From the NCBI RefSeq assembly GCF_029872155.1, contig NZ_JARXLA010000008.1:808501-872500 (forward strand): a stretch of 64,000 nt of DNA, in the 5' to 3' direction. Each line of letters begins with the position of its first letter. Within the stretch, counting starts at the first letter, position 1. This DNA is from Hyphomicrobium sp. D-2 (GTDB lineage: Bacteria > Pseudomonadota > Alphaproteobacteria > Rhizobiales > Hyphomicrobiaceae). Positions 49,599-64,000 of this stretch are shown one piece after another. The translations under genes and the position numbers were made by a program. The notes below the pieces were generated by a model. The model ran no database searches, was not told where the DNA came from, and was given only the letters and a program-made list of their open reading frames with translations.

Positions 49599-50819
49599 AT
49601 GAAAGCTGAAACGGTCGCGCGTGGGGGCGCGGAACAAAACAACTGGAAACGGAGGATCGGCGTCATCATCCTGCCGGCGCTGGCGGTGCTGACCGCGCCG
49701 CTGTTCCTGAACGTTCCCACGTCCGCCAGCCAGAATGCGCAGCTTAAGCCGATAGAGCAGCTTGGCGCGCGCCTGTTCTTCGATACGAACCTGTCAAAGA
49801 ATCGCACGCAGTCCTGTGCGACCTGTCATAGCCCTGAACACGCATTCACCGACCCGCGTGAAACGGCCGCCGGGCGCGCTGTGTCTATGGGCGACGAAGC
49901 GGGCGCGATGGGCGATCGCAATACTCCGACGCTCATGTATTCTCACATGACGCCGCCACTGACGAAGCACGAGAACGGCAAGATCACCGGTGGTCTGTTC
50001 TGGGATGGGCGAGCCGACAATCTGCAAGAGCAGGCCAAAGGGCCGATGCTCAATCCGGTTGAGATGAACATGCCGGACGGCGCATCCGTGGCCGAGCGTA
50101 TCCGCGAGAATCCGGAATATGCCGTGCAGTTCAGGCAGCTTTTCGGTGATGATGTTTTCTCTGATCCCGAGAAGGTGTTTGACGCCGCTGCGCAGGCGCT
50201 GGCTGCATATCAGAGCACAGAAGAATTTTCGCCGTTCGATTCAAAGTACGATCGCGTGCTGCGTGGCGAGGAAAAATTCACGTCGCTGGAGGATTTCGGC
50301 CGGCAGGTGTTTCTGACGTGGAACTGTCAGCTATGTCATCGTCCGATACGCAGCGGTGGCGATCTCTCAACCGAGCTGTTCACGAGCTTCGAGTATCACA
50401 ACATCGGTTTGCCGGTGAATCCGAAGGCGCGTGAATTGAGCGGTAAGGGCAGTGACTATGTCGACACCGGATTGACCAGCGGCACGCACATTGCCGATCC
50501 CGCGCAGGCTGGAAAGTTCAAGGTGGCGACGCTGCGCAACGTAGCTGTCACCGGCCCCTACATGCATAACGGCGTCTTCGACAAGCTGCGGACGTCGATT
50601 GAGTTCTACAACAAGTACACCAGCTTGCAGCCAGCGGCGCAGATCAACCCAGAAACGGGCAAGCCATGGGGCGATGCGGAGGTGCCGGAGAACCTTTCCA
50701 CGTTCCAGCTCAAGACCGGACTAGCGCTGAGCGACTATCGCATCAAGGCGCTGGAAGCGTTTCTCAGAACGCTGACGGACAAGCGTTACGAGCACCTGAT
50801 GCCGGAGATGGGGCAGTAG
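49599..50819 (+). CDS. Di-heme cytochrome c peroxidase (CcpA/MauG family)
   Basis: 406 aa. One N-terminal membrane anchor (GVIILPALAVLTAPLFL), then two haem motifs: CATCH (73-77) and CQLCH (243-247). Other family blocks are LGARLFFDTNLSKNRTQSC, FWDGRADNLQEQAKGP and VATLRNVAVTGPYMHNGVF. It probably reduces hydrogen peroxide in the periplasm or acts as a MauG-type modifying enzyme. The ATG at 49599 is chosen; the frame is open to 49494. The Crp/Fnr regulator upstream may control it. Confidence 0.9.
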   Translation: MKAETVARGGAEQNNWKRRIGVIILPALAVLTAPLFLNVPTSASQNAQLKPIEQLGARLFFDTNLSKNRTQSCATCHSPEHAFTDPRETAAGRAVSMGDEAGAMGDRNTPTLMYSHMTPPLTKHENGKITGGLFWDGRADNLQEQAKGPMLNPVEMNMPDGASVAERIRENPEYAVQFRQLFGDDVFSDPEKVFDAAAQALAAYQSTEEFSPFDSKYDRVLRGEEKFTSLEDFGRQVFLTWNCQLCHRPIRSGGDLSTELFTSFEYHNIGLPVNPKARELSGKGSDYVDTGLTSGTHIADPAQAGKFKVATLRNVAVTGPYMHNGVFDKLRTSIEFYNKYTSLQPAAQINPETGKPWGDAEVPENLSTFQLKTGLALSDYRIKALEAFLRTLTDKRYEHLMPEMGQ

Positions 50820-50877
50820 TCAGATAACACCAAGCCCGGCGTGCGAGCTGCGAGGCTCGCGCGCTGGGGGCTCTCGA

Positions 50878-52338
50878 TCAGAGGGTGGGCAGCAGATAGG
50901 TCAGCGCGCCGTGGAACTGCTGCTGTCGGCGTTCGCCCGGCCGGTTCTCGGGGAACTGCACATCGGAATATATGAACATCAGATGCGTGTCGGCGAATGG
51001 ACCGGACTTCGGCAGATACTCAAGCTTGATGTCGAGTTCGCGCTGATCGGAACGCGGTGCTCCGGTTGCCGGATCAATTATTCCGTACGCATTGCCGTAC
51101 AGAACGGCAAACTTCAGCCCATCGGCGACAAGTTCCGAAAAGTCGTATGAGATGCCGCCGACAATCGCTGTTTGGCCAGCTTCGTTGAAGTGCATCTGGT
51201 CCATGTTGGTATAGGCAGGAAAGCTGCCGAACGGATTCACAAGGTCATCGCTTTTGCCGTTGCTTGAAATGGCAACATAGCCGGTTGCGTTAGCGTAGCT
51301 TGCCGCCGCCCGCGCGGAAACCTGTGACGCGGAGAAGTCACCGCCGCGTATCAGCTTGGAGCCGACCGATTGCTGGTTCGTGTAATTCACGCTGAGTCGG
51401 AAATCGATATCATGCATGATTGCGGGCAGCAGCCAGTCGGCCTCAACAAATGCCGTGTTGAGTACGTCCGGAATGAGATAGTTGAAGCCACCTATGGTTA
51501 GGCCATCGACGGGGGTCAGCTTGAGGCCACCGAACAACATGCCCCGGTCCTCGTGGATGCCAAGTTCGTTCGAGAACGAAACGAAATAGCTGGAATCGCG
51601 CGCTTTGAAGCCCCACAGATAGCCGCCGCCATAATCAAGCCAACTCAACTCATCGCGCTGCCGTGTAAGCACGACGCCTTCCACCGTGTTTGGGATCATG
51701 CGCGTGTCATATGGATTGACATATGGCGTCTTCAGAAGCTGCCGACCGGTTGTGAGTTCTTGTCCCAGAAATCGCATTCTGGCGTTTGCAACCGACAGTG
51801 CACTGACTTCGGCCTGCTGCTCAGTCAGCAACAGCGTGCCGCCTTCGCCGGAAGGCGCGTAGAGTGGCTGCGAAGTAGCGCCAACAATTTCAAATTGCAG
51901 GAAGTCGCGATAAAACCCGGTCCGCAGTGAAACTGCTCCGCCGCCGGCCCATGCCTGCTGGCGTGACAGGTTGGCATTGTCCTGCCGCAAGTAATGGGTG
52001 CGCGCGTAAAGGTCGACAACCATGTCGCGGAAGAAAGGGTCGGAATACTGCAGCCGCTGTTTCAGGTTTTGCAGCAACACCGGATGCGAATGGCTGTCGT
52101 CGTCTGCATCGCCACCTGTGCCGCGCGGGTTTTGATGCGGTCCGCCGGGAAGTGCAGCCTGCGGCTCGAATGATCTTTGCGATGGGCTGTAAAGATCGCG
52201 CGCGCTTGACGGGATACGCTGGGCGGAGTCGTCTTCATCGGCACGCAGAGGAGAGGTTGCCAAGTGAAGCGCGGCCGTGGCCAGAAGCAAAGCCTTGATG
52301 CGCAGAGCGGCGCTGTTTGAACCGGATAGTGACTGCAT
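50878..52338 (-). CDS. OprD-type outer-membrane porin
   Basis: 486 aa. Signal peptide LLLATAALHLATSPLRA, then an Asp/Ser/Pro-rich stretch and a barrel of the OprD type (DPFFRDMVVDLYARTHYLRQ, WAGGGAVSLRTGFYRDFLQFE, GRQLLKTPYVNPYDTRMIPNTVEGV). OprD porins are channels for small anionic or basic substrates. Alternative start: GTG at 52350. Directly downstream of the oxalate decarboxylase gene, though a terminator lies between. Confidence 0.85.
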   Translation of the reverse strand: MQSLSGSNSAALRIKALLLATAALHLATSPLRADEDDSAQRIPSSARDLYSPSQRSFEPQAALPGGPHQNPRGTGGDADDDSHSHPVLLQNLKQRLQYSDPFFRDMVVDLYARTHYLRQDNANLSRQQAWAGGGAVSLRTGFYRDFLQFEIVGATSQPLYAPSGEGGTLLLTEQQAEVSALSVANARMRFLGQELTTGRQLLKTPYVNPYDTRMIPNTVEGVVLTRQRDELSWLDYGGGYLWGFKARDSSYFVSFSNELGIHEDRGMLFGGLKLTPVDGLTIGGFNYLIPDVLNTAFVEADWLLPAIMHDIDFRLSVNYTNQQSVGSKLIRGGDFSASQVSARAAASYANATGYVAISSNGKSDDLVNPFGSFPAYTNMDQMHFNEAGQTAIVGGISYDFSELVADGLKFAVLYGNAYGIIDPATGAPRSDQRELDIKLEYLPKSGPFADTHLMFIYSDVQFPENRPGERRQQQFHGALTYLLPTL

Positions 52339-52453
52339 CGTGCCCGTCACCTCGAATCAGAATGTGATTCAGAATACCTCGGCGGTATCAAACCACCCAG
52401 AATTCGGCAACGGCTGCTTGCAGCGAGATGCGCGGCAACGGGAGCGGCTGAAA

Positions 52454-52488
52454 CAAAAATGGCGGTGTCAATGCTGGCACCGCCATTC
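52454..52488 (-). terminator. Rho-independent terminator after the oxalate decarboxylase gene
   Basis: On the minus strand AATGGCGGTG pairs with CACCGCCATT (10 bp) and is followed by TTTG. It lies 25 bp past the stop. Confidence 0.75.
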
Positions 52489-52512
52489 CACTATTGTTTG
52501 CAGGCTGAAGGA

Positions 52513-53661
52513 TTACTTCACGACCGGCTGATACGAGCGGCGTAGCGCACCCATAACCTTCTCGTTGAGGTTCAGCGTGCCCTTGACCATTTCCGGCGGT
52601 GTAAGTGCCATCCACTGGTTCAGCGAGATGTCGCGGTAGTCCTTCGTGTTGAACACGTTGATGACCTGCAACGGCTCATTGCCCGTATTCTCGATGTAGT
52701 GGCCCAGCGTTTTGGGAACGCATCCGACATCGCCCGCCTGGAAATCGAAAGTGCGAGCGTTTGACGTTGCGTCGAACACCGTCATGCGGCCCTTGCCCTT
52801 GGTGTAATACTGCAGCTCGTCGGCGTCGGGATGCCAATGAATTTCACGCAGCGCACCGGGCTCAAGGTCGATAATCAACGCCGAGAGCGTGGTTTCGGGA
52901 AAGTGCCGCACGTCGATGATTTTGGTCGACCCGCCTTCGAACTTTGTCGCCGGGACCTTTGAGGCGTGGAACACATACGGTTGCGGTGCAGGCACCTCAG
53001 TCAACTGTTTGCGCACAACATCAAGCGGCGGCGGCACCGGCAACGGGAAGATATACTTCTGCTGCTTCGGCAGACTGTCGAAGTCGGCTTCCGGCAGCCC
53101 GAAGTTTTTGGATACAACCTCGCGCGGCATGTGGGCCAGGAACTCGGTGATCAGCAGAGTCTGGTTTTCGGAAAACTGGGCGTCGTCAAACACCAGAACG
53201 AACTCGGTGCCTTCTTCCAATCCCTGGATGGAGTGGGGAACACCGGAAGGAATGAGCCATACGTCGCCGGGTTCGAGGTCATCCACATACGCGTGTCTAT
53301 CTGCGTCAACGACGGTGAGGCGCGCCTTTCCAGCCGTGATGTAGGCCCACTCGGCTTCCTTGTGCCAGTGCAATTCGCGCACGACGCCGGGCCCAAGGCG
53401 CATGTTGACGATGGCCATGGACGTGAGCGCAGGCAGCTCCCGTGCCGTGATTTCGCGAGCCCATCCGCCTTCCTCAAGACGGTTATGCGCGAACGCGAAT
53501 GGAAAATGCATATTCGGAAGCGAGCCGGAATCTGTCGGCGGCGGAGCAAACAGATCCGGCGCCATAAGCTCAAGCTCTACGTTGCGCGGGCCTGCCACTG
53601 TGGCGCCGCGCTTACCCTCGATCGGCTCTGGCGGACTGGTATTTGGAACACGCTCTTGCAT
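52513..53661 (-). CDS. oxdC: Oxalate decarboxylase family bicupin
   Basis: 382 aa with two cupin domains. Metal site 1: His98, His100, Glu104 (ELHWHKEAEWAY) and His143; site 2: His275, His277, Glu282 (EIHWHPDADELQYY) and His321. Spacing closely matches Bacillus OxdC. The lid between domain parts is SENQT (164-168), against SENST in OxdC; the Glu needed for decarboxylation is kept. The enzyme turns oxalate into formate and CO2 with manganese. Unlike some family members it shows no signal peptide. It is divergent from an AEC carrier gene. Confidence 0.9.
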   Translation of the reverse strand: MQERVPNTSPPEPIEGKRGATVAGPRNVELELMAPDLFAPPPTDSGSLPNMHFPFAFAHNRLEEGGWAREITARELPALTSMAIVNMRLGPGVVRELHWHKEAEWAYITAGKARLTVVDADRHAYVDDLEPGDVWLIPSGVPHSIQGLEEGTEFVLVFDDAQFSENQTLLITEFLAHMPREVVSKNFGLPEADFDSLPKQQKYIFPLPVPPPLDVVRKQLTEVPAPQPYVFHASKVPATKFEGGSTKIIDVRHFPETTLSALIIDLEPGALREIHWHPDADELQYYTKGKGRMTVFDATSNARTFDFQAGDVGCVPKTLGHYIENTGNEPLQVINVFNTKDYRDISLNQWMALTPPEMVKGTLNLNEKVMGALRRSYQPVVK

Positions 53662-53932
53662 GAATGAAGCTCCTGAACAGAGAACAGAACAACGCCCCCA
53701 GCTGTGCGTGCTGAGTACATCCCGTTGAATTTTTTACGCTTGGGATAATGCCTGTTCAGCTCTAACGGCCGCGTGAATTTCGCCATTTCAATTTAGAGCT
53801 TCTATTTCGCGCATGTTGCTTCTTAAGGTTATGCCTCACTCAGGATAATCCGTTCACTGCGTTGACGATGCGCATTGTTGCAGCCGTAATCCGACGCTGT
53901 GGTACTGCGGGCGCAAACAGGACGGGTGCGGA

Positions 53933-54856
53933 ATGACTGCGATTATCCAGGATATTGCATCAATATTTTTCGTTCTGGCGTTGGGTTATTTCTCAGGCAA
54001 GCGCAATTCGTTTTCACAGGTTCAAGCAGCGGGTTTCAATCACTTAGTGCTGAACTACGCGTTGCCTGCAACGCTGTTTGTGTCGATCGCCAATTCAACG
54101 CGTGAGGAGCTGTTCTCAGACACGCGATCGTTGCTCGTATCAACGGTCGTTCTGGTTGGCTGGTATGTCATCTCGTTTCTGGTGGCGATGTTCGGGTTCA
54201 AGCACAACAAGCAGGAATCGGGCATCGCGGGCTTGAGTGCGGCCGCACCGACGGTTGGCTTCCTGGGTATGGCGGTGTTGTCGCCACTGTTCGGCGGTCA
54301 GGCCGCGTTGAGCGTTGCAATCGTGGCGCTGGTGGTGAACGTGCTGCAGGTGCCGCTGGCAGTATTCTTCGTCGCGCCGGGCGGAACCAATCCGGTCAGT
54401 TCGCTCATCAACGCATTGAAGCAGCCGGTCGTGCTGGCACCGTTGATTGCAGTCATCATCGTCGCGATGGGCCTGCGCTTTCCGCCTCTGGCCGATCCGC
54501 CGCTCGAATTGATCGGACATGCAACATCAGGTGTTGCGGTGTTTGCTGCCGGGTTGGTTTTGTCAGCGCACAAGTTCCATCTCAATCTGGAAGTGATCTG
54601 GAACACGATCGTGAAACTGGTCTTCGTGCCGGCCTGCATGTTGGGCGGTGCGATGTGGCTGGGCATTTCCGGCATCAAGCTTGAAGAGCTTGTGCTGCTG
54701 GCGACACTGCCGCCCGCGTTTACCGGCATCGTGCTGGCTGGCCGATATCAGACGTATGTCGGCCTTGCCTCTTCGACCCTGATTGTCACGTCGTTCATGT
54801 TCGCTATCGCAGCGCCGGCATGGATTGCACTGGTGCGATATCTCGCGGCCAACTGA
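53933..54856 (+). CDS. AEC (auxin efflux carrier) family transporter
   Basis: 307 aa with ten membrane segments. Family features are IIQDIASIFFVLALGYFSGK, FNHLVLNYALPATLFVSIA and VLLATLPPAFTGIVLAGRY. Bacterial AEC members carry small carboxylates such as malonate or malate. Placement next to oxalate decarboxylase suggests an oxalate or related dicarboxylate substrate, by inference. CGGA five bases before the ATG is the only ribosome-binding hint. A terminator follows. Confidence 0.88.
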   Translation: MTAIIQDIASIFFVLALGYFSGKRNSFSQVQAAGFNHLVLNYALPATLFVSIANSTREELFSDTRSLLVSTVVLVGWYVISFLVAMFGFKHNKQESGIAGLSAAAPTVGFLGMAVLSPLFGGQAALSVAIVALVVNVLQVPLAVFFVAPGGTNPVSSLINALKQPVVLAPLIAVIIVAMGLRFPPLADPPLELIGHATSGVAVFAAGLVLSAHKFHLNLEVIWNTIVKLVFVPACMLGGAMWLGISGIKLEELVLLATLPPAFTGIVLAGRYQTYVGLASSTLIVTSFMFAIAAPAWIALVRYLAAN

Positions 54857-54876
54857 CGATTTGACAGCTATGCAAC

Positions 54877-54916
54877 GCGGCTCGAAGGCAAACGCTTTCG
54901 GGCCGTTTTGTTTTTC
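54877..54916 (+). terminator. Terminator after the AEC carrier gene
   Basis: CGGCtCGAAgGC and the downstream GC-TTTCGGGCCG half pair imperfectly and are followed by TTTTGTTTTT. Confidence 0.7.
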
Positions 54917-54945
54917 GCAGACGCTGCCGGTGCAAGCTTGCATAC

Positions 54946-55070
54946 GGAAAACGCCCCGGACCAAAGGTCCGGGGCTCGGCTGTCGAGGGAGGGCGCCCAT
55001 CGACCAACCGGGATGAAGCCGCGGGGGGATCGGCTTCGTCCACCAACAACGTCGCGCAGGCATGAGCGTT
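54946..55070 (-). ncRNA. Candidate small RNA, three consecutive hairpins
   Basis: Reading leftward: hairpin 55037-55015 (GAAGCCG/CGGCTTC, C-rich loop), hairpin 55004-54982 (GTCGA/TCGAC with GGG/CCC inner pairs) and hairpin 54975-54953 (GCCCCGGACC-TTT-GGTCCGGGGC, 10 bp) followed by GTTTTCC. The last looks like a terminator. No gene lies beyond it on this strand. Boundaries are estimates and no promoter is clear. Confidence 0.3.
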
Positions 55071-55194
55071 CCAATTTTTAGGGGCGGTGCTTGCCGCTGT
55101 GCCCGTGTTGGACGGGACCAATCGCGTACTTGGCAAATGGCCGGTTTAATCGGCTGCCCGAATTTGCTCCAGCGAATCAGGTATTTGCTGGCCA

Positions 55195-56451
55195 ATGCTC
55201 GAAAGACTGCAAAGCATCGATATCAATGAGGTTCGGCAGGCGCTGGAAAACGCCCTGGCCGATGTGCCGCAGATTGCATTTTATGCAATTGGCGGCGTGA
55301 TCGCGTTTGGCGCATTGGTGCTGCTGCTGCGCGCCATGGAACGCAGCAATCGGGCCCGAACCGACGCGGCTCATGCTGCCGCGCAGGAAGCCGCCCAGGT
55401 GGAGTTTGCCGAACTAAAGGGCCGCCTGTCCGCGATAGCCGAGTTCACTGCACAACAGAACGCGGAGCAGGTGCGCGCCCTGAATGATCGTCTGGATGGT
55501 ATGGCGCGCCATCTCGCACAAACGCTGGATGTGACTTCTGCGCGGCTGGGCGACAACCTCAACGAAGCCGGGCGTCGTACATCCGAAAGCCTTTCAACTC
55601 TGAACGAGCGTCTGGCGCTTATCGATCAGGCGAACCGTAGTCTTGCCGATCTCTCAAGCGAGGTCGTGTCGCTGCAAAGCGTGCTGGCGAACAAGCAGGC
55701 GCGCGGTGCGTTCGGTCAGATGCGCATGGAAACGATCGTGCGTGATGCGCTGCCAGCCCGCGCCTACGATTTCCAGCCGACGCTCTCCAACGGCAAACGC
55801 CCTGATTGCGTCATCCGGTTGCCGAATGCGGAAGCGCTGGTGGTCGATTCCAAATTTCCGCTGGAGGGGTTCGAGGCGTTGCGCGTGGCGCAATCTGCCG
55901 AGCAGAAGCGCCGGGCCTATGCCGCCATCCGCGAGGCTGTTGGGCGGCACATCGCGGCGATTTCCGAGAAATATCTGATCCCGGGCGAGACGCAGGAAAC
56001 GGCGCTCATGTTCGTGCCATCGGAATCCATCTGCGCCGAGCTGTTCGAAAAGTTTCCTGATCTCGTACAGGGGGCGCATCGCTCGCGCATCATGATCGTT
56101 GCGCCAAATACGCTTATGCTGGCCGTTCAAACGGTGCAGGCGTTGCTGAAGGATGCCAAGATGCGAGACCACGCCGATGTAATCCAGCGCGAGGTCGGCC
56201 TGCTGCTGGCGGATGTGGGGCAACTGGTGGAGCGGGTGTCGGATCTGGAGCGGCACTTCTCGCTGTCGCGTAAATCTCTCGACAGGGTGACTGCGGCGAC
56301 AGCCAAAATTCTTGGCCGTCGGGAGAGACTGTCATCGCTCGATCTGGAGGGTATGGAAGGCAGCGGCAGCAATGGTTCGGCAATGCCGGAGCTGCAGGCG
56401 CAGGCGGCGACGGTTGTGTCGGCGACGGATACTTCGACCGGCAATCATTGA
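55195..56451 (+). CDS. rmuC: RmuC family DNA recombination protein
   Basis: 418 aa. One N-terminal membrane helix (FYAIGGVIAFGALVLLLRA), a long coiled coil (residues about 55-165), then the RmuC nuclease-like domain (GAFGQMRMETIVRDALP, KRPDCVIRLPNAEALVVDSKFPLEGFEA, SRIMIVAPNTLMLAVQTVQAL). VVDSKFP carries the D-x-K part of a PD-(D/E)XK fold, with PDC earlier. RmuC limits DNA inversion at short repeats. Start ATG 55195; ribosome-binding site is weak. Confidence 0.93.
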   Translation: MLERLQSIDINEVRQALENALADVPQIAFYAIGGVIAFGALVLLLRAMERSNRARTDAAHAAAQEAAQVEFAELKGRLSAIAEFTAQQNAEQVRALNDRLDGMARHLAQTLDVTSARLGDNLNEAGRRTSESLSTLNERLALIDQANRSLADLSSEVVSLQSVLANKQARGAFGQMRMETIVRDALPARAYDFQPTLSNGKRPDCVIRLPNAEALVVDSKFPLEGFEALRVAQSAEQKRRAYAAIREAVGRHIAAISEKYLIPGETQETALMFVPSESICAELFEKFPDLVQGAHRSRIMIVAPNTLMLAVQTVQALLKDAKMRDHADVIQREVGLLLADVGQLVERVSDLERHFSLSRKSLDRVTAATAKILGRRERLSSLDLEGMEGSGSNGSAMPELQAQAATVVSATDTSTGNH

Positions 56452-56508
56452 TTGAATGACCGAGCGCACCTGACTGACGAGCGGGCGCAAATTAGCCGAC
56501 AGCGATGT

Positions 56509-57153
56509 TCAAGCCGGACGCATGCGATCAGGGTCGCGCGGGCCGAACGTCAACAGCAACGCAATAGCCAGCACGAAGCCGCCGATCACGTCAGTGGGGT
56601 AATGGACGCCCTGATAAATCCGCGCCAGGCCGATGCCCGCAATTAACGCGATGAACGGCGTCAGCACCACCGCGCGCATCCAGGCATCGGGCATTCGCGC
56701 CGTGACGAGCATGCCGATGAAGCCGAAGAAACATGCCGCCATTAGCGCGTGACCGCTGGGAAAGCTGAAGCTTTCGGGCGCTTCACCAAATACTGGCAGG
56801 GGGCGCGGCCGCGCCATCAGGTGCTTTACGAACAGGTTAGCGAGAAACGCAGCGCCCATCAGCAACGCCAGATTGATCGCCAGAAGCCTGTGACTGAGCA
56901 GGAGCAGCGCGAGCGCAACAACAGCGGCCATGCCATAGATCACCGGCGCTGATCCGATGTGGTTGAGCGTGTGTGTCAGCTCCGTCAGGCCCGGCGTCGC
57001 CCAGCTCTGCACGGCAAGCAGGCCGGTGCGGTCAAACTCTTCGGTCAAGCCGATGAAAATGGCGACGGCCAGCACAAAGAAAATGTTGAACCCCATGCGG
57101 GCGCCAGCAAGCGCGCTGCGTTTCGCAAGTGGCTGCTGCTTAATTTGCGTCAC
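56509..57153 (-). CDS. PAP2 family phosphatase
   Basis: 214 aa from GTG 57153, with six membrane segments. The three PAP2 motifs are present: KHLMARPRP (K-x6-RP), SFPSGHA and ARIYQGVHYPTDVIGG. It dephosphorylates a lipid phosphate at the membrane surface, such as phosphatidate or undecaprenyl pyrophosphate; the substrate is open. The GTG has GGGGA six bases upstream; ATG 57168 or GTG 57192 would add a short tail. Confidence 0.88.
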   Translation of the reverse strand: MTQIKQQPLAKRSALAGARMGFNIFFVLAVAIFIGLTEEFDRTGLLAVQSWATPGLTELTHTLNHIGSAPVIYGMAAVVALALLLLSHRLLAINLALLMGAAFLANLFVKHLMARPRPLPVFGEAPESFSFPSGHALMAACFFGFIGMLVTARMPDAWMRAVVLTPFIALIAGIGLARIYQGVHYPTDVIGGFVLAIALLLTFGPRDPDRMRPA

Positions 57154-57293
57154 TTCGCTTCCCCGCATGCGGTGCCGATGCTCTCTGAGCACGTCTATGC
57201 ACTACAGATCAGCGTGCGCATAGACAGTGCCGTCGAAGCAGTAAAAATGCGGGCGACGAGAAAAGCGATGTACCCATCCAAGTTGGTGCAGCG

Positions 57294-57647
57294 CTATTCC
57301 TTGATCCAGTCGCTGCACTTCACTGGCTCTGCGGTGCCCCACGGGCTGATCGGCACCGCGGCGGTCGCGCTTTCCGGGCTACCTTCGATCGGGCGGTCGG
57401 TGTAGGCGAGATAGACCAGCACGTTGCGCCCGGCATCGCAGCCGCGGACGATCTGCATGCGCTTGAAGATCAGCGAGCGCCGCTGGCTGAAGGCCTCATC
57501 GCCCTGCTTCAGCTTGCCCGTGAACTTGATCGGCCCAACCTGCTGGCACGCCAGTGACGCCTTCGGCAGCTCCTCGGCGAGCCCCAGCCATCCACTCCAG
57601 CCGCCCTTTTCCGGCACGGTGAAGTAGCAGGTGACGCCCTCTGGGCG
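57294..57647 (-). pseudogene. creA: creA, N-terminally truncated remnant
   Basis: The open frame encodes the C-terminal two thirds of CreA: EGVTCYFT, GLAEELPKASLACQQVGPIK, SLIFKRMQIVRGCDAGRNVL, YLAYTDRPIEGSPESAT. In intact CreA about 50 residues (signal peptide and start) precede VTCY. Here the frame meets a TAA at 57648-57650, and no matching N-terminus is found in any frame beyond. GTG at 57617 could still start a 107-aa product lacking a signal peptide. The break marks the edge of the accessory region to the right. Confidence 0.8.
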
Positions 57648-57693
57648 TTATCCTGACAGTCAGCCCTGCCCCCGAATCATCCCCTCTTCCTCT

Positions 57694-57715
57694 CTTCGCC
57701 CGTTTCCGGGCGAAG
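57694..57715. other. Perfect hairpin near the island boundary
   Basis: CTTCGCCCG-TTTC-CGGGCGAAG, a 9-bp stem, about 50 bp beyond the creA breakpoint. No T-run follows on either strand. Confidence 0.5.
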
Positions 57716-57854
57716 ATCAGCAAGGCGGGATGGTCGGAGACAAGGCTGTGGTCTTTCAGTCATCGGAAGATGAGCGTCGGGTCGACGTTAGGCGTTGCAG
57801 TGTAGCGGGTGCTGGCTTGATGAGATCGAGGCGGGCAAGGCCTCACTCCCTTTC

Positions 57855-58052
57855 TCAGAGGGGCTGGCCGTTTGCCCTTAGCCAAGCTTCTACTTCGGCC
57901 AGGTCGTAAACGACTTTCCCCCGGGCCCCTCCGAGTTTGAAGTAGTTTGGACCTCTGCTCTGCAGCCGCATTTCTTGAAGAGTGGAATGAGGAAGCCCCA
58001 TAAGCTGGGCCACTTCGATAGACGTTAGGAACGTTGAGTACGCCTTGGACAC
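57855..58052 (-). CDS. AlpA/excisionase-like helix-turn-helix protein
   Basis: 65 aa starting at GTG with GGGGGA seven bases upstream. The body TSIEVAQLMGLPHSTLQEMR and GGARGKVVYDLAEVEAWLRA is typical of MerR-type HTH proteins used as excisionases or AlpA-like regulators of mobile elements. It lies 57-58 kb beside the serine recombinase gene and is transcribed divergently from it. Confidence 0.75.
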   Translation of the reverse strand: MSKAYSTFLTSIEVAQLMGLPHSTLQEMRLQSRGPNYFKLGGARGKVVYDLAEVEAWLRANGQPL

Positions 58053-58077
58053 ACAATCCCCCGCACCAGCCTGAACT

Positions 58078-58093
58078 AAAAAGGTCCCTTTTT
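58078..58093. promoter_or_regulatory. Palindromic site 1 between HTH gene and recombinase gene
   Basis: AAAAAGG-TC-CCTTTTT, 7-bp arms. With site 2 it is an inverted copy of an AAGGGTCCCTTTT-type element. Candidate operator or recombination subsite. Confidence 0.5.
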
Positions 58094-58186
58094 GTGCAAC
58101 TTGATTGCGCGGTGTCTGCTGTCCGATAACGTGAGTTCACGTGCCGCCGCCAAGACGCTCGACCGCTGTGAGGTGGCACACGAACG

Positions 58187-58201
58187 AAAAGGGACCCTTT
58201 T
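58187..58201. promoter_or_regulatory. Palindromic site 2 between HTH gene and recombinase gene
   Basis: AAAAGGG-A-CCCTTTT, 7-bp arms, 109 bp from site 1. It lies about 63 bp before the recombinase start. Confidence 0.5.
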
Positions 58202-58263
58202 GATACTCACTACACCTGCCTTGGGTGCTTTCACGCGTTTGGTACCCGGCGCTTGGTGATGGA

Positions 58264-58821
58264 ATGATGATCGGATACGCCCGGGTCTCTACTGATGAGC
58301 AAAATCCAGATCTACAGTTTGACGCACTGGCGCGCGCAGGGTGCGGTCGCGTGTTTACGGACTATGCTTCCGGAGCCAGGGCAAACAGGCCGGCGCTCGA
58401 TGATGCGCTTGCGGTCTTGCGGAAGGGCGACACTCTGGTCACATGGAAACTCGACCGCCTCGGGCGAAGCTTATCCCACTTAATTAGCCTGATTGCGAAG
58501 CTTGAGAAGCGGGGCATCGCATTTCGGAGTTTGTCCGAGGCTATAGATACAGGGACTGCGGGCGGCCGTCTCCTGTTCCATGTTATGGGCGCACTGGCCG
58601 AGTTCGAACGCGCGCTTATTAGCGAGCGAACGCGGGCGGGTATGGCCGCAGCGCGCGTCCGTGGCGCCAAACTCGGGCGACCGCGGCGGTTAAGCCTGGA
58701 GGAGATCGAAGAGGCGCGCACAGCTCTGTTGGAGGATGGAGTCAACATGTCCGATCTTGCCCGGCGTATGCAGGTTCCTCGCCCGACGCTGGCAAGGGCT
58801 TTGAGGACAAGAGTGACGTAA
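58264..58821 (+). CDS. Serine recombinase, resolvase/invertase family
   Basis: 185 aa. The catalytic serine is in IGYARVSTDEQNPDLQ (about residue 9); further motifs are VTWKLDRLGRSLSHLISLI, LLFHVMGALAEFERALISERT and a C-terminal HTH (NMSDLARRMQVPRPTLARALR). Such enzymes cut and rejoin DNA at res- or inversion-type sites. ATG 58264 is preferred because the catalytic domain begins there; 58267 is also possible. No transposase gene is seen nearby. Confidence 0.92.
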   Translation: MMIGYARVSTDEQNPDLQFDALARAGCGRVFTDYASGARANRPALDDALAVLRKGDTLVTWKLDRLGRSLSHLISLIAKLEKRGIAFRSLSEAIDTGTAGGRLLFHVMGALAEFERALISERTRAGMAAARVRGAKLGRPRRLSLEEIEEARTALLEDGVNMSDLARRMQVPRPTLARALRTRVT

Positions 58822-58922
58822 CGGTAGATCGAGCGTCGCGTATAGGGCTCGCGTCTTCGACGGCTCCACGCGGGATCCGTACTTCTTTAGACGACAGGTC
58901 GGGGCACGAAGTGCGAGCCAAG

Positions 58923-60971
58923 CTACGATACCGCCTCTCTCAATCGCCACGCATTTGTGTGTCCTGCGTCCTCTCCAACGACATTGGTAATTCCAAGCTT
59001 GTCGAAGAACACGACATTCCGCTTGCGCGCATCGCGCAAGAGCTTTCCGTAAGGCAGGAGCTCTATGTACGCATTGGGGTTCTGCTGATAGCCGAAATAC
59101 CCTTCGCCATCTGGCGTTTTTTGCAGGCGGCCGATGATGCGCTCTTCCAGCTCGTCTGTAATGTCGCAGACAATGTAGCAATGGAAAGCGGTACCATCAT
59201 TTATGCCGCGAATGGCTTTGCCGCGGACGTCCTTCAGGCCCTTTGCCGACTTCAGCGTCTTAACGTAGTGCAGGACCTGTTGAACTGGATCTTTGCCCTT
59301 CGAGTAATCCTCGCGCATCGGCCGCTTGAACTCGACGATGACGACGGTGTCGGTGCCTTCCGCTTCGCGCCAAGCGACACAGGTGCTGAAGAAGAAAGCG
59401 AGATCTGGCCGCTCGGTGGACGCTACTTCACAGAACTTCCGCACCTCCAGGTCGGAGGAGAAGTAGTGCGAAAATGCCAGCCGGTCGTCGAGCATCCATA
59501 GATTGTGGTCGTCAATTTCCAGCGCGTGTGAATCAACTCGCATCGGACAGATGAGTTGATGGATGGCCTCTTCTTTCTTGTACCTTTCGGAATCGGCATC
59601 CTCGTACTCGAGAAAGGTCTCGAACAGGTCGAGCACAGCTTTACGCCTCACGACGTACTCGGCAAGTGCACCCTTTTTCTCGTCCCGGATATATTCCTGA
59701 TACTGAGATATTTTTTCATCCAAGGCCGCTCCGATGGTTCGCTTGGTTGCGATCTCCTTGCCCACATCGGCGAATTTTTTCTGCCGGCGGAACCGATTGC
59801 GTGCGAGCTCGACGAAAATGTCCTCTTTCTTGATGCAATTCGGCTGAAGAGCCTCGGTGAAGGAGCTGATCTGCGGCTCGACATACAAAAACTGCGGGTT
59901 CTCGGCGATAATTTCGCGGGCAACGTGTGCCTTGTGATCAAGGGAGGCCCTCACGTACTCGGTAAGATATTCGCGGGCGCCGCGTGCCACTGCTTTCTTG
60001 ATGACATCGAGTTCTTTCCCGTCGAACGCGAAGGCCGAGCGCTCTGCATTAACATGGCGATCGAGATAATCGCCGGATACGCAGCCAAGATACACGTACT
60101 CGCCATCAAGTGTTCTGAGCCCGAGTTGTTCATCGAGAGTGTACTCTACGACCGATCGGGTGTTGGCGGAGAGGAACGCGAAATTGTGCCCGCCGCTATG
60201 GAAACGCGCAACTTTCTTGCACTTGAGGTTCCAGAGTTCGAGAGTGTGGATCGTGCCGTCATCGTCCACCTGAACCGTCGTGGTTGTTTGGTCGACGATT
60301 GCTTCGGCAAACATGCTCTCAACGTTGAGGGTATCTTCTCCGTCGATGAGTGTGATTTTGGGGGCGTTGCCGGTGACGAAGAGGGGCACGAAGTGGGATA
60401 TGATCCGGTGAGCGATCGTTTCCCCCTTGGCGGGGCAGCGGCGGTCGAAGTCTGAGGTGAAACCCCTGAATGAGATGATAGTGCGCTGCCGTTGCCCGGT
60501 GGCGTCGCGAGGAGGCTTGTCGGGCACCTGATCGACTTCAGTCAGTTGGAAACTGAACTCGCGCTGCATCAGCTTTTGTTTGTCGCGGAAGGTGCTGTCG
60601 ACAGTGATCTGTTTAAAGACTTTCAGCCATGCGAGTCGGCCGACCCCCTTGCCGCCCTTCTTTTCTTTGAAGCGCGAGTCTGGAGTGAGGAAAGAAAGGT
60701 AATTGGCGGGCGTGAAGCCCGCGCCGTTGTCCTCGATATCGAAGCCGTGAACAGGATGGTCGTCCTGATCATCGGCTCGCGCAACGGTTACGGTGATGTG
60801 CCCCTTTTTTGCGGTGGCTGGTCCGTATTGCTCCGTCACGGAATGGATACTGTTACTGATGGCCTCCATGAGGGGCAGAAGAGCGCCCTTCTCCGAAGGC
60901 TTGACGGGTAACCGGTTCACGCGCCCAACGATGTCGCTTCGAAGATCCGCCATGCGCTCATCGACTCCCAT
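58923..60971 (-). CDS. GHKL-type ATPase with C-terminal PD-(D/E)XK nuclease-like domain
   Basis: 682 aa. The N-terminal GHKL ATPase has the N-box LMEAISNSIH (Glu36, Asn40), G1 DIEDNGAGF (81-86) and G2 GGKGVGRLAWL (106-116). A long middle region (about 120-500) includes LWMLDDRLAFSHYFSSD. The C-terminal part has ERPDLAFFF (Pro522-Asp523), VVIVEFKRP (Glu547, Lys549) and PVQQVLHYVK (Gln564), together matching a PD-(D/E)XK nuclease core. A start at 60953 is also possible. It follows the UvrD-like gene by about 187 bp in the same direction and is convergent with the recombinase gene. GHKL ATPases usually move domains on ATP binding; nuclease gating is the natural guess. Confidence 0.8.
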   Translation of the reverse strand: MGVDERMADLRSDIVGRVNRLPVKPSEKGALLPLMEAISNSIHSVTEQYGPATAKKGHITVTVARADDQDDHPVHGFDIEDNGAGFTPANYLSFLTPDSRFKEKKGGKGVGRLAWLKVFKQITVDSTFRDKQKLMQREFSFQLTEVDQVPDKPPRDATGQRQRTIISFRGFTSDFDRRCPAKGETIAHRIISHFVPLFVTGNAPKITLIDGEDTLNVESMFAEAIVDQTTTTVQVDDDGTIHTLELWNLKCKKVARFHSGGHNFAFLSANTRSVVEYTLDEQLGLRTLDGEYVYLGCVSGDYLDRHVNAERSAFAFDGKELDVIKKAVARGAREYLTEYVRASLDHKAHVAREIIAENPQFLYVEPQISSFTEALQPNCIKKEDIFVELARNRFRRQKKFADVGKEIATKRTIGAALDEKISQYQEYIRDEKKGALAEYVVRRKAVLDLFETFLEYEDADSERYKKEEAIHQLICPMRVDSHALEIDDHNLWMLDDRLAFSHYFSSDLEVRKFCEVASTERPDLAFFFSTCVAWREAEGTDTVVIVEFKRPMREDYSKGKDPVQQVLHYVKTLKSAKGLKDVRGKAIRGINDGTAFHCYIVCDITDELEERIIGRLQKTPDGEGYFGYQQNPNAYIELLPYGKLLRDARKRNVVFFDKLGITNVVGEDAGHTNAWRLREAVS

Positions 60972-61158
60972 CCGAGTGCTGCTCGAAGAACCTCACGATT
61001 AGAGTTGGGAGCGGCGCTAGTTCTTTCTGCCAGTTCTCCACCTAATTCACAGGCGTCAGCGCAGAAATACACGATTAGCCCAAGCCACGGCGCCGCCGGG
61101 CGTGGTCCAGCATCGCTACTACGCTTTCCATGGGTACGGTCTGAATTGATGATCAGCG

Positions 61159-63066
61159 CTAGACGCGGCCGTGGTCCGTTAGGTCGGTAATTACCTCGTC
61201 GGCAGCGAACCAATTGCTCGCGATGACGTGCGCACGTACTGCAGCGGGGGCAGCAGAATAAGCAACGAGCGCCAAGCTCGAGCGAGCGCGACTGCACGTT
61301 ACGTAGAAGAGGCGCCGAGTACGGTCGAGCGACGTTTCCTTGCCGCCTTGGGCGTTCTTAACATCCGCAGCAGATTGGGCTTTGGCGCCTAACAGCTTTT
61401 CATAGTCGAACAAGAAACCCCTAGACTCCTCGTCGTCCATAAGGACCATAACGCGCTCAAACTCTAGGCCTTTCACCCCCTGGTGAGTGTCAAAGGGTGC
61501 TTCATGAGCCACATATGCAGCATAGGGCGCGATTTGGGAGAATGGGCAATCAAGGAAGGCAATGAGTGCCGCAACCTGATCAGTTACCGGATCGGCCGCC
61601 TCATCGGATCGGGTTTCTGCAGGCGCAGCCTTAGCAGCTAGGGCGGCCTTCAGGCCATCAGGAACGGCAAATAGGTTGGTCCTGGCGATGTTCGCAGCTA
61701 TGGCACCACACGAAGGTTCGTTACTGGCCCATAGGCCCATGAGGCTGTCGATTGCGGTCTGGGCTATCCGAAGTTGGTCGATCGGCTTGTCCCGACCTTT
61801 CAACGTATCCTTACTCAGCAGCGGAGAGCCTTCGCGTACGATCTTGGTCGCTGCGAACTTGTCACCCTTCTGTTGCGCCGTGACGAGGGGAAGTACGTTG
61901 TGGGTGAAGAAGCGGGTCGGAGCAAAACTTCCGTCAAGAAAGGCGGTTCTGTACTCATCTACGGAAGCCAAAGCCTCGAACATCTGCAGGAAGCCCATCC
62001 TGCGCGCCGCCATATGATGCTCAAGAGTGAGAATCTTGCACTTTGAGGCATCGGACCAATCCTGATCTCCCGTAAGATTCGCCATATAGACACGGACAAG
62101 CTGTTCCATCGCTGGTTTGTCCGGTACCGCAGTTGGGAATACAAAAAACCTTACCCAACCTTCAGGGCGGTCGTCGCGCGGCTCCTGTTTGTGGGCGTCT
62201 GCGCCGCCACGGATCTGGTTGATGAGTCGAACAATACGTTTAGGGCAGCGGTGATTTAGTTTTTTCTCAGGTATGCCCCACCCCGCTGGTATCTCAGTCT
62301 CGATCCGTTCTTTTCCATCGGGATAGATACGCTGCATGGTATCGCCAATGAGACCTAGGCAAAACCGATTCGCGTGAGCCTTTTGAACCACGAACAAGGC
62401 GTCGATGAGCACGCGACTTGTGTCCTGGCTCTCGTCAATCAGGAGAAACGGATACCTCTCGACGAACATGCGCTGCATTAGCGGCTTGGTGAGCAGAAAG
62501 CTCGAGAAGATCTTTATTACCTCGCTGTGGTTGAGCGCGTTCCGTTCCCGGTTGTCGCCATTGGGATTGTAGGTGAAGACTTTGAACTCAGGCAGCCGGG
62601 CCAGCCGCCGCTGCTTGGACTCGAGTTGGGCTTGGCGAGCGGCGGATGCCTTCGTACCGGCACGACCCTTGGCCTCCTCGGCGTGAAGCTCAGAGATTTC
62701 GCGCTTGAGATTGTCTTTCAACCACACCCGAATGTCCGTGTTCAAGCCCTGTATTTGCATCCACGCAAAGCTATGAATGGTGCGCACAACGAAAAGCGGA
62801 TCATACTCGGTGCGGCGGGTGATCTCATCGCAGGCAGCATTCGTATAGGTGATGACCGCAACTTGGCGACCGCGCAGGCGGAGAACATCGCGGTAGGCGC
62901 TCGCCAAATATTTCAAAGCGTTTACCAGGGTACGCGTCTTGCCTGAACCAGCTCCGGCAAAGAGGAAAAAGCTGGTTGGGTTCTCCAAGTTCAAAAATCG
63001 AACCAGCTCATCCTCTACATGATCATCAACTTTGACGTTCAGCGGCGCGTTTTCAGGAGTCTTCAC
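61159..63066 (-). CDS. UvrD/Rep-like helicase, Gabija GajB-type partner
   Basis: 635 aa, SF1A helicase. Walker A AGAGSGKT (37-44), motif Ia ITYTNAACDEI, motif II DESQD (211-215), motif III LGLIGDTMQRIY, motif IV LNHRCPKRIVRL, motif V HQGVKGLEFERVMVL and motif VI RLFYVTCSRAR. A basic insertion (about 115-165) separates motifs Ia and II. It starts at GTG, overlapping the upstream nuclease stop by 4 bp (GTGA). It is longer than typical GajB (about 500 aa). The pairing with an OLD nuclease is the main functional clue. Confidence 0.88.
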   Translation of the reverse strand: MKTPENAPLNVKVDDHVEDELVRFLNLENPTSFFLFAGAGSGKTRTLVNALKYLASAYRDVLRLRGRQVAVITYTNAACDEITRRTEYDPLFVVRTIHSFAWMQIQGLNTDIRVWLKDNLKREISELHAEEAKGRAGTKASAARQAQLESKQRRLARLPEFKVFTYNPNGDNRERNALNHSEVIKIFSSFLLTKPLMQRMFVERYPFLLIDESQDTSRVLIDALFVVQKAHANRFCLGLIGDTMQRIYPDGKERIETEIPAGWGIPEKKLNHRCPKRIVRLINQIRGGADAHKQEPRDDRPEGWVRFFVFPTAVPDKPAMEQLVRVYMANLTGDQDWSDASKCKILTLEHHMAARRMGFLQMFEALASVDEYRTAFLDGSFAPTRFFTHNVLPLVTAQQKGDKFAATKIVREGSPLLSKDTLKGRDKPIDQLRIAQTAIDSLMGLWASNEPSCGAIAANIARTNLFAVPDGLKAALAAKAAPAETRSDEAADPVTDQVAALIAFLDCPFSQIAPYAAYVAHEAPFDTHQGVKGLEFERVMVLMDDEESRGFLFDYEKLLGAKAQSAADVKNAQGGKETSLDRTRRLFYVTCSRARSSLALVAYSAAPAAVRAHVIASNWFAADEVITDLTDHGRV

Positions 63067-64000
63067 GCTGCCACCTCCTCAGCAAGACCGAGTTCGACCT
63101 GGCGCTGTTCGAGCTGCCCGGCCAGCCAAAGTAAGCCAGCTGCAATGTAGGTGGGCGGGTTTAGGGAACGCGGGTTCTCAAGTTCGAGCAGATCAAGCGC
63201 AAACTCAGCCTTGCCTCCGCCTGCCAGCGCAGCTTTGAGCGCGGCACCCAACGCATTCAGATCTGCGCTATCGGTAATAGCGCTTCGGAATTTCGCAATG
63301 AGACCCGTTCCAGGCAGCGTCTCGAAGAGCACGAGATTTGCCATAACGACCGCGTCCTCGAGCGTGTAGGTAAGCGCCTCAGAGGTTTGGCCTTTGAACG
63401 TTGCTTGGTGGGGTGACTGGTACGCCACGCGCACGGAAAAACCCTCGTCTACATAGCTTTTGACCTTCTCCGCCTCGGGTTTGTCTAGCAGAGGGTCCAG
63501 CTCATTGATGATCGGCCACCATGTTCGCAACGTGGCGTTCCGGGTGGTGCAGTCAGTCCCGCGGACCGGGGGCGCACTGGCACCGGCAGCGTTGCACGAA
63601 TCGAGGTCAGTAATGACGAGTGTAGTGAGCCCGATCTTTTCAATGAGGCTCCTCAGCTTGTGGGCGTGACTGCCTCCGATTTCAAGCCAAGTGATGTAGC
63701 TCTCCGAGAGCTTCGCAAATTCTGGGTGAGAGTTCACGAAATGGGGCACGAGAATGCGCTCAGCTGGCCCTTCGATAAGGACGGCCGCATCTGCAAAGAA
63801 GAGATCGCAGTGGGTGACACGCAGATATCTGGTCACAAACCGTTTGGTATCTGCGTCTGCGCCAAATGCACTCTCGAGATTGACCACGCACGACGTAGGT
63901 ATCGCGTCTGCGTCACCTGGTAAGCGACGGAAATAACGGAGTGCGTCGAACTCGCACTCGTGAGCGATATGGCTGGAGTGCGTGCTTACCACCATCTGCG
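63063..64000 (-). CDS. OLD-family ATPase/TOPRIM nuclease, partial (continues past the window)
   Basis: At least 312 codons; the ATPase N-terminus is cut off at the window edge. The visible start QMVVSTHSSHIAHE is the end of an ABC-type ATPase core (D-loop/switch His). The TOPRIM domain follows: VLIEGPAERILVPHF (Glu75, Glu79 counted from the first Met), then LVITDLDSCN (Asp130, Asp132). Such class 2 OLD proteins accompany UvrD-like helicases and form the nuclease part of Gabija. Overlap with the helicase gene implies one operon. Confidence 0.82.
   Translation of the reverse strand, partial: QMVVSTHSSHIAHECEFDALRYFRRLPGDADAIPTSCVVNLESAFGADADTKRFVTRYLRVTHCDLFFADAAVLIEGPAERILVPHFVNSHPEFAKLSESYITWLEIGGSHAHKLRSLIEKIGLTTLVITDLDSCNAAGASAPPVRGTDCTTRNATLRTWWPIINELDPLLDKPEAEKVKSYVDEGFSVRVAYQSPHQATFKGQTSEALTYTLEDAVVMANLVLFETLPGTGLIAKFRSAITDSADLNALGAALKAALAGGGKAEFALDLLELENPRSLNPPTYIAAGLLWLAGQLEQRQVELGLAEEVAA

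Follow-up and report, generated by a model that had tools for sequence, protein, structure and literature searches.

A Gabija pair and a candidate single-gene GHKL-nuclease defence system share an element inserted in creA of Hyphomicrobium sp. D-2

An inserted element in Hyphomicrobium sp. D-2 very probably carries two independent anti-phage systems stacked side by side. The first is Gabija, a pair of genes. The second is a one-gene nuclease of the paraMORC3/VcSduA-like kind. Gene content, intact motifs, the GHKL fold of a structure model, the separability of the third gene from the pair and the insertion of the element are shown directly; the third gene would, by analogy, be a defence system acting alone.

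We analysed a window of 64,000 nucleotides (808501-872500 of a 1.035-Mb contig), extended to the right where a gene ran past its end. An initial annotation of the window had described three leftward genes in a row, beside a serine recombinase and an AlpA-like gene. All three open reading frames are present, the last of them open at the window's end, and so are both neighbours. Read leftward in the extended sequence, the order is GajA (761 amino acids, complete), GajB (635) and the GHKL gene (682). In window numbering, the features are:

57642..64000, continuing to 71110, no strand: the portion of the inserted element (13,469 bp) that falls in the window, with flanks that are contiguous in same-genus genomes
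57855..58052, minus strand: AlpA-like/HTH_17 small regulator, 65 amino acids (PF12728, 29 bits; PF05930, 15.5 bits, below the cut-off)
58225..58821, plus strand: serine recombinase of the resolvase family, 198 amino acids (PF00239, 154.7 bits)
58923..60971, minus strand: predicted GHKL ATPase with PD-(D/E)XK-type nuclease, 682 amino acids (HATPase_c_3, 26.3 bits; invariant motifs; structure model); candidate paraMORC3/VcSduA-like single-gene defence
61159..63066, minus strand: GajB, UvrD-like helicase of Gabija, 635 amino acids (PADLOC PDLC00111, 826.5 bits)
63063..64000, continuing to 65348, minus strand: GajA, class 2 OLD nuclease of Gabija (PADLOC PDLC00093, 912.6 bits; PF20469)

The GHKL gene may in truth start at an ATG six codons inward. 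It is separated from GajB by 187 bases that hold no promoter-like or terminator-like match. Since the genes share a strand and lie close together, with no terminator-like site in the gap, a joint transcript is possible, with GajB and the GHKL gene on one message.

The OLD nuclease and the UvrD-like helicase had been recognised as the Gabija pairing, and profile searches bear this out. The GajA reading frame, completed by the DNA to the right of the window, opens at 65498 and holds 811 codons; because most relatives align from about residue 50, its start is probably the GTG at 65348, giving 761 amino acids. Residues 52-803 of the 811-codon frame match nearly the whole PADLOC GajA model (913 bits), and Pfam finds the domains AAA_15 and OLD-like_TOPRIM (PF20469). 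GajB matches its PADLOC model (827 bits) over residues 12-626. The GajB start and the GajA stop overlap by four bases (GTGA). GajA contains the strings GANNSGKT, LIEEPEVHLH, LIEGPAE and ITDLDS, and GajB contains AGAGSGKT and LIDESQD; we take these to be Walker A, Walker B and TOPRIM motifs. Because they are intact in the completed sequence, the concern that the missing part of GajA might lack its ATPase residues does not apply to the pair. As judged from profiles and motifs, GajA (an OLD ATPase with a TOPRIM nuclease) and the adjoining GajB (a UvrD-like helicase) constitute ordinary Gabija. Both genes, their order, the GTGA overlap, the motifs and the near full-length profile matches are those of the known system, and no notable difference appears here except the extra defence-like gene next door. 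Nor is the helicase longer than usual, as had been suggested. The best 25 of 48 PADLOC rows include 24 GajB models, 369-685 positions long with a median of about 603. Seven of these have at least 635 positions and the two best-matching models have 625 and 632, so a GajB of 635 amino acids lies within the range.

The element (57642-71110, 13,469 bp) interrupts creA. In one same-genus genome (L106), its flanks (50000-57641 and 71111-75999) directly adjoin each other, and the gene spanning the uninterrupted site is creA (PF05981, 143.9 bits). Two further same-genus genomes, matched as DNA, also have the site uninterrupted: the flanks join at the identical point in one (L107) and within 1 base of it in the other (L108). 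Against these three genomes, no target-site duplication is evident at the element's ends. Besides the GHKL gene, GajB and GajA, the element contains the AlpA-like gene, the serine recombinase and three consecutive recombinase-like genes. The products of the last three have 508, 623 and 718 amino acids; only the 508-residue product passes the Pfam integrase cut-offs, the 623-residue product having a sub-threshold integrase match and the 718-residue product none. This recombinase-like trio is found again, its gene order kept, on plasmids of Mesorhizobium and Novosphingobium, and the annotation there names two of the three genes as integrases. The GC content of the three defence genes is 55-56%, against 61-62% for four flanking genes.

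The third gene had been read as a GHKL ATPase carrying a nuclease-like end. Its conserved motifs and the GHKL fold of its model agree with that description. Profile searches of the trio, which the initial annotation proposed, match GajA and GajB in PADLOC; for the GHKL gene product, PADLOC and NCBIfam scans at E <= 0.1 give nothing, and Pfam gives the GHKL domain alone (just above the cut-off of 25 bits). Scattered weak PADLOC matches occur among 13 relatives, to TmtA (E 0.0028, one relative), CARF5 (0.02, one) and PtuB (0.041, two). Nothing in PADLOC-DB 2.0.0 matches the protein convincingly, which makes the protein easy to mistake for a novelty.

The motifs are invariant in an alignment of 27 rows. 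They comprise E36/N40, D81-G83-G85 and G109-G111-R112 in the GHKL part, and E467/H471, D523, E547-x-K549 and Q565 toward the C-terminus. They are seen in a 13-row alignment as well. The 13-row alignment excluded one relative broken into two frames (L023) and two partial matches (L025 and L028). From the 34 viral loci, the 27-row alignment dropped four with internal stops, four near-duplicates and one partial; the count of neighbourhoods given below kept all 34.

An AlphaFold2 model of the whole product has a mean pLDDT of 83 and a pTM of 0.69, and its N-terminal part matches the folds of Hsp90, GyrB/ParE, MutL and SMCHD1. Modelled alone, the C-terminal domain has a pLDDT of 86. Its six best matches among solved structures (E 0.012-0.066) are chains of NucC, N.BspD6I/Nt.BspD6I and McrBC, which we take to be nucleases or nuclease complexes. 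Sequence searches of the PDB gave two phmmer matches at E 0.02, to GTP-binding proteins over about 65 residues in the C-terminal part. The 13-row profile matched eight sequences there (E 0.0012-0.26), histidine kinases and PMS2, in the GHKL part only, and the C-terminal profile matched none up to E 10. The motifs argue strongly for a PD-(D/E)XK nuclease at the C-terminus; the fold hints at the same.

What kind of protein is this? Iyer, Abhiman and Aravind (2008; PMC2292703) describe paraMORC3 as GHKL and S5 domains with a C-terminal RE-fold domain bearing E-D-ExK, and report some standalone paraMORC3 genes in proteobacteria and bacteroidetes. The third gene shares the N-terminal GHKL motifs, an S5-like alpha/beta region and a predicted C-terminal RE-fold domain with E-D-ExK. 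Both sets of motifs are plainly there and the RE fold is weakly suggested; against the published description we found no difference. A functional parallel is VcSduA, or Shedu type I-D, from VSP-II of V. cholerae WASA, which joins a GHKL ATPase to a PD-(D/E)XK nuclease. According to the VcSduA report (PMC12137116), it protects against phage as a single gene, the variants E27A and K557A each abolish defence, and homologues occur in about 1.2% of the genomes examined. It adjoins an independent two-gene system, GrwAB. The D-2 gene is alike in combining GHKL and PD-(D/E)XK in one gene and in adjoining a two-gene system, and a V. fluvialis relative has, at aligned places, E27 and K556 where VcSduA has its catalytic E27 and K557. 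The likeness is to the paper's description rather than to the sequence of VcSduA, and there is one difference: an SduA_C domain is reported in VcSduA (PMC12137116), whereas Pfam SduA_C (PF14082) matches none of the 13 rows of the GHKL-gene family at E <= 0.1. By its sequence features, the third gene appears to have the paraMORC3 architecture, the kind to which VcSduA belongs.

A kinship with Shedu proper (SduA_C) is weakly suggested by hhalign. Against eight proteins annotated as Shedu, one of them confirmed by Pfam as SduA_C, the ExK pairs with EIK and the downstream Q is paired too (E 1.3e-4, probability only 54%). A search for SduA_C in six genomes gave zero matches, as did its controls.

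Is the third gene a part of Gabija? The initial annotation had left the choice between a third component and a separate system. An accessory component, a 'GajC' modulating GajAB or extending its action, would account for a gene that is adjacent, on the same strand and across a short gap free of terminator-like sites. Related loci speak against it. In 15 related GajAB neighbourhoods the GHKL gene was found neither by tblastn (0/15) nor by profile (0/15), the profile search finding both of its controls. Its absence from 15 of 15 argues that it is no constant member of the Gabija operon. In the other direction, tblastn with GajA and GajB found nothing in 34 viral-contig loci or in 16 genome and plasmid loci of GHKL-gene relatives, neighbourhoods 4.7-22 kb long, of which 5 are under 10 kb and several are ended by contig ends. 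(The viral-contig relatives came from an alignment-based search; an earlier single-protein scan matched nothing.) A more sensitive profile search of these 50 loci gave three matches. One, in S. americanum (L015), is a remote Gabija-like pair (PADLOC GajA, 147 bits, then a GajB-like gene, 53 bits) lying 2.5 kb downstream of the GHKL gene; two genes separate them, and one of the two is on the opposite strand. This locus counts in favour of GajC. The GajA-profile match in L018 is instead a PDC-M01A/Septu-like ATPase, and the GajB-profile match in L025 a PcrA/UvrD-type helicase. Same-type GajAB occurs in 0 of the 50, and the gene trio recurs in neither set of loci. The initial annotation held that a joint system would be unlikely if the third gene occurred widely without the pair, which is the pattern found.

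Genome samples agree. Among 385 genomes of the class, the GHKL gene occurs in 7 (E <= 1e-5) and GajB in 8 (E <= 1e-20); among 103 genomes of the family, the numbers are 3 and 2. In both samples the overlap is Hyphomicrobium sp. D-2 alone, and seven same-genus genomes have no match to either gene. Plasmid records tell a similar story: none is common to the 56 with the GHKL gene and the best 40 of 84 with GajB. Non-overlapping records do not imply non-overlapping strains, because A. tumefaciens CFBP5877 has both, GajAB on its plasmid a and, on its plasmid b, a GHKL-nuclease (28% identical to that of D-2). The two can therefore share a cell while lying apart from each other. This strain could be cited for GajC, although its genes are on separate plasmids. 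The nearest relatives found lack the other half: no match to GajAB lies less than 10 kb from the closest relative of the GHKL gene (L005, 76%), and the nearest plasmid GajAB among the matches listed (GajB 81%) is flanked by transporter and regulator genes. Nor did the titles and abstract openings of open-licence literature yield a GajAB-GHKL system. We judge GajC very unlikely. Gabija does not regularly include the third gene, and the reading as a separate system is favoured.

Two pairs of plasmids carry either GajAB or the GHKL-nuclease at homologous integration sites. On pTi LBA4404, integrase, DUF1403 and ScpB genes are followed by the GHKL gene; on a Sulfitobacter plasmid, their homologues (63, 37 and 56% identity) precede GajAB. 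In Sphingomonas LK11, the GHKL gene comes after a block of VapC, AbrB, an unknown gene and an integrase; Sphingomonas AAP5 has the homologous block (85, 90, 54 and 72%) in front of GajAB. Within defence islands, the GHKL gene acts as an independent module.

Other neighbours of the relatives are varied. On a V. fluvialis plasmid (L020:7619-11013), a GHKL-nuclease gene shares four bases with a true Shedu (SduA_C) gene where a row of type I R-M genes ends, apparently placing two Shedu-like nucleases in one operon. On an Agrobacterium plasmid (L018:8809-13532), a GHKL-nuclease lies immediately ahead of a PDC-M01AB/Septu-like pair.

Could the third gene be an orphan here, as a restriction-type nuclease that works together with other genes, be they R-M, Septu-like or Shedu partners? 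The R-M and Shedu genes beside the V. fluvialis relative and the Septu-like pair beside the Agrobacterium one would fit, and paraMORCs are, according to Iyer et al. (PMC2292703), found mostly in R-M systems. But the partners vary from locus to locus, three relatives (L005, L021 and L022) have no recognised defence-like neighbour on the same strand, the same source reports standalone paraMORC3 genes, and VcSduA suffices alone, as its report states (PMC12137116). We think it improbable that the gene is such an orphan.

How might the two systems work? In Gabija, GajB activity on phage DNA and the depletion of nucleotides license cutting by GajA. The D-2 pair, with an ATPase and TOPRIM nuclease in GajA and a UvrD-like helicase in GajB, would presumably do the same. 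In the third protein, ATP most likely drives dimerisation of the GHKL domain. The S5-like region, together with a long helical linker, would then form a clamp that closes on invading DNA, and closure would switch on the C-terminal PD-(D/E)XK nuclease. This mechanism is borrowed by analogy from the work on VcSduA (PMC12137116). Were the GHKL-nuclease instead recruited to Gabija, its ATP-driven clamp might hold or nick phage DNA and feed ends to GajAB; we hold this to be a long shot. Equally doubtful is its corollary, a three-gene GajAB-GHKL variant found so far only in the D-2 element.

The preferred reading remains that of two separate systems. A recombinase-bearing element in this Hyphomicrobium would stack two unrelated anti-phage systems, and the locus carries a caution that neighbours on one strand need not form one system, as GrwAB and VcSduA illustrate in V. 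cholerae (PMC12137116).
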